Positions 30,381 through 35,161 of a stretch of DNA of 47,002 nt are shown here, piece by piece (within the stretch, counting starts at the first letter, position 1; each line of letters begins with the position of its first letter). Source of the stretch: Chloroflexota bacterium (lineage in GTDB: Bacteria; Chloroflexota; Dehalococcoidia; CAUJGQ01); assembly GCA_963170165.1 (NCBI GenBank), contig CAUJGQ010000056.1, positions 1 to 47,002 on the forward strand, written 5' to 3'. Below the pieces are notes generated by a model. The model made no database searches. It had not been told where the DNA came from and worked only from the letters and a program-made list of their open reading frames with translations. Position numbers and translations under genes: made by a program.

Positions 30381-31973
30381 TCACGACGGAATCAGCCGTG
30401 TGACCGGCCGGGTATACGATCCAAACGTCGGTTGCCACGATGAGTGCTTCCCAGGCCCACCCGCGACAATCACGGTAAGGTCCTCCGGCTGCGCCATGAT
30501 GCAGGCATGATCGGGACAGATGCCGGCGTTCAGCGCCGCCAATTCGGCGCGGTACTCAGGCGACAGCCGGGCATGCGGATACCTGGCCTGCTCAAACACG
30601 TAGGCTTTGACATCTTCTTTGCGGTAGCCGTCTTCTGCGATGGTGGCGGCGTGTTCCGGCCCCAGAGCGAGCAACGGCCAGCCGTGGCGCAGGATGTTAT
30701 TGCTGCCGGCCTGACCCATCGCACCGGCGATGGTCTGCAGAATGCCTTCGCCCGTGTTGCTGACGTGCTCCTGAATGTTGTGCGGTCCTTCGCAGCCGAT
30801 AACCGTCACGGTCGATTGCTCGGGGTGATAGCCGCGCTCCACGTGCAGCGGCCCCCACGGGTTGGCGGCTTCGTTCTCGGCGATGCAGTAGCTGTACTTG
30901 GACGGGCTACCCTGGGTGGCACGGTCGCCGGTGCCGGGCAGCCCGCCTCCAACGTTCATCAGCAGCAGCCGCATCGCCCGACCGATGGTGGCGTTGGCGC
31001 GATGGCCCGGACCAAAGCAGTTGTACCCAGAGGCAATGCCCAACTCCACCGCCACCGGACCGTTGACGATGATCAGCGGCGCAACGGGATGGGTCGTCGC
31101 CTGCACGCCGTCCAGGTTGAAGGCGGGATCGGCCACGGCTTCAATCGCGGAGATGAGAAGCGGCAGGTACTCCGGCCGGCACCCTGCCATCGCGGCGTTG
31201 ATGGCGATCCGCTCGATGGTTGCCTCTCCCTGTCGAGGCGGCAACACGGCGACCACCTCCCGCCGATCGCGTTTGACGGCAGCTAGCATCGACTCGACGG
31301 CCACCTCCGTCGGCGCTAGCACCGGTAACCCGTCCGTCCAACCTCGCTCACAGAACCACTCGAACAGCGACAGCGGGTCAGCGTGTACCTCCGTCAGTCT
31401 CGAGGGCTGCCCGCTGGTGGTTGCATCACGGACCGCGCTGGGTCCTGGAGGGGTCACCAGAGCAGCCGCCACTACATCCACCAGGCCCGCCGCCTTGGTG
31501 GTTACCGCCGGAGGTCGCAGACCGCCGATGGGATGCTCTGTCAGCACGACCGGCAGTTCGGCCACCCCGCGGGCCCGGCTCTCCAACGCGACCAACCCGG
31601 CGAAGGCATCAGTTCCGATGACCAGCGAGGGAAGGCCCTCTTTTTCCAGCTGGATGGCGGCGTGGACACTCCACGTCGTGCACGAGCCTCAATCAGCGCT
31701 GCCGACGAGGATGGCATCCGCACCGGCTTTGAAATCGGCGATGATCGCGGCAGAGGCCGGGCCGTTCACCGGCTTCCGGCGGACGAGCACTTCACGGACG
31801 CCGTAGCGCTGCTGAAGGCCCTCGGCCACTGAAGTCATCAACAAGCCGGCGTTGGCCTTGCTGTTGTCCAGGATGCCGAGGCGCAGGCCCGCCAGCGCAA
31901 GCGGACGCGGCGCCGGTTGAGCATGGCGCACGCTGGTCGGCGCCGTCGGGTCGTAGACGCGGATGCTGGCCAT
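30381..31973 (-). CDS. UGSC-family selenoprotein fused to a Cys-rich domain
   Basis: A single 530-residue frame from the ATG at 31973 (AAGGAG upstream) contains an in-frame UGA at 31691-31689, read as selenocysteine 95 and followed at once by Gly-Ser-Cys: the UGSC motif. The frame stays open on both sides with continuous domain sequence: ILDNSKANAGLL and ADAILVGSAD before, then TTWSVHAAIQLEKEGLPSL and VVLTEHPIGG after. Residues about 1-172 form the UGSC domain; an Ala/Pro-rich linker leads to an uncharacterised domain (about 197-530) with GLPVLAPT, AGCRPEYLP, NCFGPGHRANATIGRA and cysteines at 208, 265, 319, 363, 394, 486 and 491. A SECIS-like hairpin follows the UGA. Probably a thiol/selenol redox enzyme; the reaction is unknown. 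Confidence 0.88.
31658..31678 (-). promoter_or_regulatory. Bacterial SECIS-like hairpin after the Sec UGA
   Basis: In the mRNA, CGUGG (31675-31671) pairs with CCACG (31665-31661) around the loop AGUGU, whose second base is G. Two further pairs (CG with CG at 31678-31677 and 31659-31658) flank one A/C mismatch. The stem begins 10-13 bases after the UGA, within the coding sequence, as SelB-dependent SECIS elements do. Confidence 0.7.
31689..31691 (-). other. In-frame UGA, selenocysteine codon
   Basis: TGA on the minus strand at codon 95 of the 30381-31973 gene. The following codons GGC TCG TGC give the UGSC redox motif. Other family members carry Sec or Cys here. Confidence 0.85.
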
Positions 31974-32157: not shown

Positions 32158-32955
32158 ATGGCCGGACGTGTTGAAGGCAAGGTTGCGATTGTGACCGGTG
32201 CCGGGCAGACACCGGGAGCGACGATCGGGAACGGGCGTGCGACTGCGATCCTGCTAGCGCGGGAGGGCGCGCACGTCGTGGTCGTGGATCGCGACGCCAG
32301 CTCTGCTGCCGAGACGGTGAAGCTGATTGAGGCGGAGGGCAACGCCGCCACTGCGCACACCGCCGACGTCACCAGTGCAGTGGCAGTTCAGCGACTGGTT
32401 GCAGAGACGCTCACCCAGCTCGGCCGGCTCGATATCCTGCACAATAACGTCGGCGCCAGCATCACGCTGGGCGATGCAGCGGCGGCGGAGATGACCGAGG
32501 AGGCGTACGACCGGAGTTTCGCAGTCAATCTCAAGAGCGCCTGGCTGACCTGCAAGCACGCGCTCCCTGCCCTGCGGGAACGCGGCGGGTCGGTGGTGAA
32601 CATCTCCTCGATGGCCGCCTGGGAAGCCTACCCGCTTGTGGGCTATAAGACGATGAAAGCCGCCGTCATCGCGCTGACCGAGAACCTGGCCGCGGCGAAT
32701 GCGGCGTATCTGGTGCGCGTTAATGCCATTCTGCCAGGCCTGATCAACACGCCGATGGCGATTGAAGCGCGTGTTGCACAGGGAACCCCGCGCGAAGAGG
32801 TGGTAGCGATGCGTGACCGGCGCATTCCCCTGGGGCGCAGGATGGGTACCGCCTGGGACGTCGCTCACGCCGCGCTCTTCCTACACTCGGACGATGCCCG
32901 CTTCATCACGGGCGTCGCCCTGCCAGTGGACGGTGGCGCAAGGATTGCTCAGTAG
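32158..32955 (+). CDS. Classical short-chain dehydrogenase/reductase
   Basis: 265 residues from the ATG at 32158, with GAGGGAG just upstream. The cofactor motif is extended: TGAGQTPGATIGNGRA at about 13-28 instead of the usual TGxxxGxG spacing, as in a subset of SDRs. Later motifs are standard: HNNVG, VVNISSMAAW with the catalytic Ser, and YKTMK with Tyr and Lys. An Asp after the second strand (VVVDRDA) predicts preference for NAD(H). The substrate is unknown. It is divergent from the selenoprotein and upstream of the thioredoxin-reductase-like gene. Confidence 0.9.
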   Translation: MAGRVEGKVAIVTGAGQTPGATIGNGRATAILLAREGAHVVVVDRDASSAAETVKLIEAEGNAATAHTADVTSAVAVQRLVAETLTQLGRLDILHNNVGASITLGDAAAAEMTEEAYDRSFAVNLKSAWLTCKHALPALRERGGSVVNISSMAAWEAYPLVGYKTMKAAVIALTENLAAANAAYLVRVNAILPGLINTPMAIEARVAQGTPREEVVAMRDRRIPLGRRMGTAWDVAHAALFLHSDDARFITGVALPVDGGARIAQ

Positions 32956-33111
32956 CCGGCGGACAGGCGGGGTATCGGGTGCGGGAGCGCCCGGTCGGGC
33001 CGCCTGCTCCCAGTGGTTCGTAGTCAGTGCTGGCCCGGCGCACAAGCCACGAGCTAGCTGCTCACAACAGATGCTCCGACGGGCGAGCCGGCGCAGACGT
33101 GCGAGGTGGCG

Positions 33112-34032
33112 ATGCCAAGCGTTGAGCTGGCGATCATCGGTGGCGGCGCAGCGGGCCTGACAGCGGGACTGTATGCGTCGCGCCTGCGGCTCGATGTGGT
33201 GATGATCGAGCGGATGGGTACGGGCGGCCAGATCATCAATGCCGCCACCATCGACAATTTCCCCGGCTTCCCCGGCGGTATCAAGGGGTACGAGCTCGGG
33301 CCGCTGATGGCGCAGCAGGCGCTGGATGCCGGTCTACGGATCGAGTACCAGGAGGTGCAGCGCATCTCCCGCCAGGGCGAAGGCTTCCTACTGGAGACGG
33401 ACGGCGCGCCGGTTACCGCCCGCGCCGTGCTGCTGGCGTCCGGCTCGTCGCTCACGCGCCTCGACGTGCCAGGTGAGTCTGAATTTGAGGGCCGGGGCGT
33501 ATCGTATTGCGCCACCTGTGACGGTGAGTTCTTCCGCGATCAGCCGGTAGCGGTCGTCGGTGGCGGCGACACAGCCATGGACGAGGCGCTGTACCTAGCA
33601 GACATCGCGGCGTCGGTGTCGGTGCTGGTACGCGGTAGCGCATTGCGCGCCCAGCCGGTGCTGGTCGAGCGCGTGCGGGCGCAGCCCGCCGTCTCCATCC
33701 GGCTCGGCACGTCCGTCCTAGCGATTACCGGGGATGCTGCAGTTGAGGCGGTCACCATCACATCCGGGGGTATGACGGAGCAGTTGCCGGTCAGTGGTGT
33801 GTTCGTCTCGGCTGGGCTGACGCCCAACACTGCGCTCCTGCGCGGCTTGCTCGCGCTCGACAGCGGTGGGTATGTGCCTGTGGATCTGTGGATGCGCACC
33901 GTAGTGCCCGGGCTGCTGGCGGCCGGTGACCTACGCCAGGACTCTGCGCGTCAACTGGTCAGTTCCGCCGGTGATGGGGCAACGGCGGCGCTGGCGGCAG
34001 CGCGGTACCTGCGCGGCGGCGAGTGGCGCTGA
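33112..34032 (+). CDS. Thioredoxin reductase-like flavoprotein
   Basis: 306 residues from the ATG at 33112 (GAGG five bases upstream; GTG 33106 is possible). FAD binding is shown by IIGGGAAGLTAGLYASRL and by the C-terminal LLAAGDLRQ. The redox-active pair is CATC (Cys133/Cys136), as in bacterial TrxB. The nucleotide domain has VVGGGDTAMDEALYLA, but the NADPH-specific HRRxxxRA segment is replaced by VRGSALRAQ, so cofactor preference may differ. Located two genes from the selenoprotein; it could supply reducing power to it or to a thioredoxin-like partner (inference). Confidence 0.88.
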   Translation: MPSVELAIIGGGAAGLTAGLYASRLRLDVVMIERMGTGGQIINAATIDNFPGFPGGIKGYELGPLMAQQALDAGLRIEYQEVQRISRQGEGFLLETDGAPVTARAVLLASGSSLTRLDVPGESEFEGRGVSYCATCDGEFFRDQPVAVVGGGDTAMDEALYLADIAASVSVLVRGSALRAQPVLVERVRAQPAVSIRLGTSVLAITGDAAVEAVTITSGGMTEQLPVSGVFVSAGLTPNTALLRGLLALDSGGYVPVDLWMRTVVPGLLAAGDLRQDSARQLVSSAGDGATAALAAARYLRGGEWR

Positions 34033-34216
34033 CAGCGGTTAGGTGATACCGACCGGCCGGCGATTCGCAGCCGATTGATGCGGAGTGGGGGCAATCCGCT
34101 GGCCTAAGCTGCGGATCTCTTTTGCCGATAGCAAATGGGAGAAGCTAGCGATGGTCCCAACGGTCCGACCGTGTGTCGACACGGGGAAGGGGTTGAGCGG
34201 CAGCCGGGGGGTCTCG

Positions 34217-35161
34217 ATGGTCGCCATCTCAAGCGCGTTGCAGCACCGAATCATCAAGGCGGCAGAAACGCATCTCGGCCCGCAGGCAGACGAGTTTGTG
34301 CGGGATGTGTGCCGTAACCGGCTGGACACCCCATTCGAGGCGCTGGAGTTCACGAGAATCAACGCGCTGCTCAAGGCCATCGAGCAAGATGCCGGCGAGG
34401 TATTGGGCTGCCGCACCGCAGAGGCGCTGGCGGAGGCGATCCTCCAGATCAAGGCTGACGTCGAGGCGGGGCTTGCCGGGCGGCTGATCGGCAGCCTGGC
34501 CAGGGTGATGGGACCTGCGGCCGAACCGTTCATGCGCAACGTCTGTCAGAAGTCCGGCACATCGCTCGATGCGGTCACACGCGACGCCCTGCCAGCGCTG
34601 GCCCGCACCGCGAAGACTGAGGCATTGCCGCTGCTGGGCGAGGAAACGGCCGGCGCGGTGGAACATGTCATCGCCCGCGCGGCCACTGCCCGCCCCCCAG
34701 CAATGCTGGCAGGCATCCTGGCCGCGGCGAGGGACTGCCTGGGCGCGCGGGGTGAGGAGATCCTTCGCCAGTTGTGCCGCTCGCGGCTCGAAACCGACCT
34801 GGACGAAATCGAGCCGGAGGCGCTGGCATTGCTGGCAGACGCCATCCGCGTGCAGTCTGTCGACCTGATTGGTAGCGCAAATGCCGCAGCTTTCGCCCAA
34901 GCCGTAGCAGCGGCGCTGATGTCGCCGAACGTAGCGCTGCGCGGCCGGCTGGCCGAAACCGCCCGCAAGTACGTCGGACCCGCCGGCGAGGACTTCCTGC
35001 GCCGCTCCTGCCGCCGGGCGGGTATGCCGTGGGAGGCCGTCGACGTCGAGCACATGATGTGGCTGGCCGAGGTGGTGCGGACCGAGTCAACGGCCCTCAT
35101 CGGCAAGAAGCAGGCGGACGACTTCGCGCGCGTGGTGCGCGGCTTCCTCACCGGCAAGTAG
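34217..35161 (+). CDS. Four-repeat helical protein of unknown function
   Basis: 314 residues from the ATG at 34217; an in-frame ATG at 34151 with GGGAG upstream would add 22 residues. The protein consists of four tandem repeats of about 78 residues. Each opens with a Gly-(Pro)-x-(A/G)-E/D-x-(F/I)-(V/M/L)-R-x-x-C block: LGPQADEFVRDVC, MGPAAEPFMRNVC, LGARGEEILRQLC and VGPAGEDFLRRSC. The cysteines fall at 32, 110, 187 and 265, spaced 78, 77 and 78. Each repeat then has about three predicted helices and a LLG/LIG segment. No signal peptide. It faintly recalls helical DUFs found beside signalling domains, but I cannot name it. Confidence 0.75.
   Translation: MVAISSALQHRIIKAAETHLGPQADEFVRDVCRNRLDTPFEALEFTRINALLKAIEQDAGEVLGCRTAEALAEAILQIKADVEAGLAGRLIGSLARVMGPAAEPFMRNVCQKSGTSLDAVTRDALPALARTAKTEALPLLGEETAGAVEHVIARAATARPPAMLAGILAAARDCLGARGEEILRQLCRSRLETDLDEIEPEALALLADAIRVQSVDLIGSANAAAFAQAVAAALMSPNVALRGRLAETARKYVGPAGEDFLRRSCRRAGMPWEAVDVEHMMWLAEVVRTESTALIGKKQADDFARVVRGFLTGK

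Follow-up and report, generated by a model that had tools for sequence, protein, structure and literature searches.

The minus strand of a Chloroflexota contig carries a reading frame that is interrupted by a single UGA directly before codons for Gly-Ser-Cys. Is this UGA a stop codon between two genes, or does it encode selenocysteine (Sec) in one protein, and what would such a protein do? We studied the locus in the window, the whole stretch of 47,002 nucleotides analysed (contig CAUJGQ010000056.1, assembly GCA_963170165.1), together with the rest of its genome and with related loci.

Results and discussion

Organization of the gene

The coding sequence and its start signals are as follows.

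30381..31973, minus strand: whole coding sequence, 530 residues with predicted Sec95, UGSC domain fused to a partner domain; open frame through one TGA, full-length homology
31689..31691, minus strand: in-frame UGA, codon 95, predicted selenocysteine and first residue of U-G-S-C; relatives have UGA or a Cys codon at this column
31987-31982, minus strand: AAGGAG ribosome-binding site, 8 nt upstream of the ATG, from the sequence
32041-32013, minus strand: promoter-like TTGACG-17-TAAGAT, from a consensus scan, 9 of 12 bases, 0.3 chance matches expected

The minus frame runs from the ATG at 31973 through an in-frame TGA at 31691-31689 (codon 95) to a terminal TGA at 30383-30381. The preliminary description had proposed that two frame-compatible segments are joined here by a UGA and Gly-Ser-Cys codons, which is confirmed with its coordinates. 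Reading through the TGA yields 530 residues containing VGSADUGSCTTW. Translation table 11 yields a 94-aa ORF and a 404-aa ORF, the latter starting at a TTG in mid-domain. Automatic annotation would therefore split the gene, as had been expected, and the downstream segment indeed has no proper start, since under table 11 its only candidate is this TTG inside the domain. Genes of this sort are easily cut in two at the UGA. The homology said to continue past the UGA does so: the Pfam UGSC match spans the codon, and tblastn alignments to ~45 loci cross it. Both start signals described earlier lie ahead of 31973, and the promoter is the sole sigma-70-type match in the region by consensus scan. 'Strong' is a fair word for it, though an unproven one.

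Selenocysteine decoding

The genome containing the window (4.41 Mb in 213 contigs, 97% complete) encodes the machinery for selenocysteine. Matches to selB (318 bits), selA (503 bits) and selD (355 bits) each exceed the curated cut-off, as does that to tRNA-Sec (70 bits), whose anticodon tca (UCA) was confirmed by ARAGORN. All four components named in the preliminary description are thus present, including selB and selC, whose absence it had listed as an argument against selenocysteine. The selD match (contig C150:16052-16984) itself contains one in-frame TGA, so SelD may also be a selenoprotein here.

The codon at the Sec column is UGA in nearly all relatives fetched. Cys codons (TGC or TGT) were confined to archaea, with five loci from Methanobacteriaceae and relatives, and to a single actinobacterial locus, in agreement with the earlier statement that the family carries Sec or Cys at exactly this position. 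Two further UGSC genes in the window genome have UGA at the same codon. An assembly error, raised earlier as another way for the proposal to fail, is excluded because TGA at this codon recurs in independent contigs of unrelated phyla and in these two paralogues. A Syntrophaceae cluster (L064, 453-10218) contains at least four UGSC domains and three partner domains, and one of its UGSC copies has lost Sec (GDRCS).

A bacterial SECIS is a hairpin shortly 3' of the UGA with a small apical loop containing G (PMC1088965). The window has a hairpin directly 3' of the UGA, with the loop GUG:

31675-31661, minus strand: candidate SECIS hairpin CGUGGA-GUG-UCCACG, 6 pairs, apical loop 31667-31669 beginning with G; from folding and covariation

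Its local fold is unremarkable (z = -0.14 against synonymous recodings, that is, no extra stability), and a comparative test was therefore used. UGA-containing relatives have a three-base loop with G as its first base, ~20 nt downstream of the UGA. The stem bases change in step, being GGA/UCC in one group and GCA/UGC in another. Among 30 distinct UGA rows, 80.8% of the cells are paired compared with 70.8% in shuffles, and double-change cells number 22 compared with 8.1; neither value was reached in any of 500 shuffles, a control that does not amount to a probability for a SECIS because the relatives share ancestry. Better arguments come from sliding the register of the hairpin alignment, which leaves only 18-50% paired, and from the six Cys-type rows, in which 47.9% of the cells are paired and double changes number zero. 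The mean folding z against synonymous recoding is -1.5 in 51 UGA loci and -0.2 in the six Cys loci. Chloroflexota loci retrieved via the partner domain alone mostly have the same hairpin. The comparison supports the assignment of the hairpin as a bacterial SECIS, apparently kept by paired changes in UGA genes and missing in Cys genes.

These data bear on the alternative that the TGA is a genuine stop codon or an assembly error, leaving two genes or a pseudogene and no Sec. TGA does mean stop in table 11, and the stability of the hairpin in the window is unexceptional; set against the recurrence of the UGA in relatives from several phyla and in two paralogues, the complete Sec machinery, the covarying SECIS and a second part that lacks a proper start site, this reading is very improbable. 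By these comparisons, the UGA at codon 95 is almost certainly decoded as Sec.

The UGSC domain

31455..31958, minus strand: UGSC domain, residues 6-173, PF24696; predicted flavodoxin-like Rossmann fold from an AlphaFold2 model and PDB fold matches

The Pfam UGSC model PF24696 matches residues 6-173 across the UGA with 148 bits (gathering cut-off 25), which bears out the family assignment made in the preliminary description and places the protein with the UGSC proteins to which an alignment had been suggested. The NCBIfam UGSC equivalog NF041046 gives 116.3 bits and its cut-off of 125 is not reached, so by its profile scores the protein is a divergent UGSC member that belongs to Pfam UGSC but not to the NF041046 equivalog. 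Zhang and Gladyshev described the UGSC selenoprotein family in 2008, together with a fusion of UGSC to an unknown domain (PMC2398784). UGSC is thus already a known selenoprotein family, fusion included, and the novelty of the present gene is modest.

By sequence, the UGSC domain has no significant match in the PDB. An AlphaFold2 model built from 31 window and locus sequences (mean pLDDT 95) has five strand-helix alternations. Sec95 is predicted to lie directly ahead of a helix starting at residue 96, and Cys98 one turn on. By fold, the model resembles receiver-like, flavodiiron and flavodoxin-like proteins in the PDB, although the TM-scores of about 0.4-0.5 are modest. The domain is thus predicted to be flavodoxin-like. 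The thioredoxin fold guessed in 2008 (PMC2398784) was considered and set aside, the predicted model being flavodoxin/receiver-like instead.

Probable relation to selenoprotein B of the glycine and proline reductases

The preliminary description called the function of the family essentially unknown. The family is indeed functionally unsolved, but its function can be narrowed through a relation to the Grd/Prd selenoprotein B. The NCBIfam model for GrdB matched 11 of 58 relatives and those for PrdB, GrdF and GrdH no more than 4 each; the best E-value was 1.6e-7, and the aligned region is the Sec-bearing part of the models. Scanned singly, the relatives reach at most 31 bits, compared with curated cut-offs of 65 to 602 (TIGR01917, TIGR01918, TIGR04483), and the window protein itself matches none of these three models. 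When the UGSC alignment was compared by hhalign with PrdB-like proteins from the same phylum, the E-value was 6.9e-6 and the probability a moderate 85%, with the UxxC motifs aligned. The same comparison with GrdE/PrdA-like proteins gave E 0.014 and a probability of 3%.

The two UGSC paralogues in the genome have UGSCSSC and UGSCTTC, a UxxCxxC pattern, and the UGSC of the window gene corresponds to UxxC; UxxCxxC is required in GrdB/F/H (PMC6778437). The profile comparisons make it very likely that the UGSC domain and the Sec domain of the glycine/sarcosine/betaine/D-proline reductase selenoprotein B are distant homologues. This relation is not stated in the open-access literature searched. The window genome has no match to the GrdE/PrdA proprotein (PF09338). 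The same genome, without GrdE/PrdA, carries on another contig (C47:74394-75092) a PrdB-like gene that contains a single in-frame TGA.

The partner domain

30384..31406, minus strand: partner domain, residues ~190-530, with conserved AENE..NPW, TDGLP, NATIGRA and PEHA motifs; a family without Pfam, NCBIfam or PDB match

Across 31 relatives, the partner domain gave no significant hit to Pfam or NCBIfam, and a search of the PDB by sequence gave nothing significant. The model of the whole protein is confident (pTM 0.92), and its fold search against the PDB found nothing convincing for the partner domain; the four fold matches at E <= 0.001 place ~190 columns on hydrolase structures, which the UGSC domain alone also matches. 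GrdE/PrdA was considered as the source of the partner domain and rejected on sequence (hhalign E 0.26). No viral contigs encoding the partner domain were found.

With the partner domain alone as the query, it was found in 32 of the 301 genomes of the phylum. A UGSC domain adjoins it in 26 of 29 loci found in this way; of the three loci without one, two are situated at the end of a contig. The motif contains UGA in 25 of these 26 loci (20 UGSC-type, 5 USTC) and has lost it in one. Three arrangements are seen: UGSC first, partner first, and fused. A tree of 89 partner domains pairs the window copy with a split copy from the same class as its sister (98/98). The fused state changes at least six times on well-supported branches of this tree, in which some deep joins are long-branched and unsure. 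Because the fused or split state changes repeatedly and in both orders, UGSC and its partner appear to be one working unit, and we regard a two-part enzyme as very likely. In the partner domain columns, the best Cys is not invariant and neither is any Lys. An obligatory pyruvoyl group of the GrdE type is unlikely because GrdE/PrdA is absent, no relation of the partner to it was seen, and there is no invariant Cys or Lys. The partner therefore probably binds the substrate without a GrdE/PrdA-type pyruvoyl group.

Several related loci have features of their own. One Chloroflexota subgroup (L119-L123) carries U-S-T-C instead of U-G-S-C, with a distantly related partner domain in the same protein, and may be a separate subfamily. 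Another genome of the phylum (G079) has five partner-domain genes within 52 kb (contig C29:202976-254880; L126 and L127). In an archaeal Cys-type locus (L069, 6001-7009), the partner is split by a frame change, either because of an error in the assembly or because the gene has decayed. A fused copy in a sequence titled Bordetella parapertussis (L036) is near-identical to that of an unclassified betaproteobacterial MAG (L055), and the title is probably a mislabel.

Neighbouring genes and possible functions

32158..32955, plus strand: divergent short-chain dehydrogenase, Pfam adh_short_C2; a neighbour only
33106..34032, plus strand: thioredoxin-reductase-like flavoprotein with a CATC redox motif, Pfam Pyr_redox_2; second divergent neighbour

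The thioredoxin-reductase-like neighbour is a possible electron source. Farther on, 34085-35161 encodes a 358-residue protein with apparently about four internal repeats of ~80 residues and no Pfam match. At betaproteobacterial fused loci (L029-L037, L045, L055, L071), 42 of 79 neighbours are TctC receptors and 5 are MmgE/PrpD, compared with one TctC among 60 genes in the other loci scanned, these being raw counts. In Chloroflexota, CoA-transferases, short-chain dehydrogenases and transporters occur among the neighbours. Scans of the window, betaproteobacterial and Chloroflexota neighbourhoods point to no single pathway and the hints are mixed, but they are compatible with small organic acids as substrates.

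Redox selenoproteins typically show U-x-x-C spacing, and together with the thioredoxin-reductase-like gene nearby this spacing would suit a general thiol-disulphide oxidoreductase, in which Sec95 and Cys98 act like the CxxC of thioredoxin or peroxiredoxin in redox defence and the partner is accessory. This role is a published guess, and papers from 2008 and 2026 place UGSC among the thioredoxin-fold proteins (PMC2398784, PMC13188914). We consider it rather unlikely: the confident model predicts a flavodoxin-like fold made of five strand-helix units, the profiles favour GrdB/PrdB, and so many invariant residues in a partner of 340 residues point to a dedicated substrate. Metal ligation has been proposed for other, functionally uncharacterized Sec families (PMC13188914), and the Sec/Cys pair and partner might likewise bind a metal or a selenium or sulphur compound, for detoxification or metal handling, with no substrate cleavage. 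Such a role is improbable, as no metal transporter or resistance gene is prominent among the neighbour families listed and the Grd/Prd relation does not suggest metal binding.

Proposed mechanism

As a whole, the observations are explained best by a UGSC selenoprotein whose Grd/Prd-like Sec domain reductively cleaves a substrate held by the partner, an explanation that we favour by a modest degree. In the mechanism proposed for D-proline reductase, the PrdA pyruvoyl group holds the substrate, the PrdB Sec attacks the alpha carbon and a PrdB Cys resolves the selenoether (PMC3091704). Because the UGSC domain appears homologous to PrdB, the same division of labour would make the partner the substrate holder. 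SelB and Sec-tRNA would read the UGA at codon 95 as Sec, guided by the SECIS hairpin downstream. The partner domain, occupying the place of GrdE/PrdA in the known reductases, would hold a small, probably carboxylated, substrate. The Sec95 selenolate could then attack the substrate, leading to reductive cleavage of a bond as proposed for PrdB, and Cys98, as the partner thiol, would form a selenide-sulphide bond with Sec95. A thioredoxin-type system might reduce this bond, and such an electron supply is plausible. By analogy with these reductases, the reductive-cleavage chemistry is a tentative assignment, with chances slightly short of even. It is conceivable, though we think it unlikely, that UGSC and its partner form an additional branch of selenium-dependent enzymes for reductive cleavage, alongside the glycine- and proline-type reductases, one that has no GrdE/PrdA and a partner fold new to the PDB, and with which environmental bacteria open small organic acids.

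Our study adds a flavodoxin-like fold prediction, the relation to the Grd/Prd selenoprotein B and a near-constant, so far unnamed partner to what is known of UGSC. The link to Grd/Prd and the definition of the partner make the function of UGSC testable.

Comparison with known systems

The window protein shares with the UGSC family (PF24696, NF041046) the predicted Sec in U-G-S-C, the prevalence of Sec among relatives and the fusion to a further domain, but differs in scoring under the NF041046 cut-off. The 'Unknown_1' domain of the fusion described in 2008 (PMC2398784) may or may not be the partner domain found here. GrdB/F/H (PF07355, TIGR01917, TIGR01918) and PrdB (TIGR04483) resemble UGSC in their Sec domain, the UxxC motif and the need for a second, substrate-handling part. 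In contrast to these selenoprotein B families, UGSC scores far under the family cut-offs, occurs in a genome with no GrdE/PrdA and has a partner unlike GrdE/PrdA. The PrdB-like selenoproteins of the same phylum share with UGSC the Sec in UxxC and the class of domain, but they are encoded by a separate gene and form a separate subfamily.
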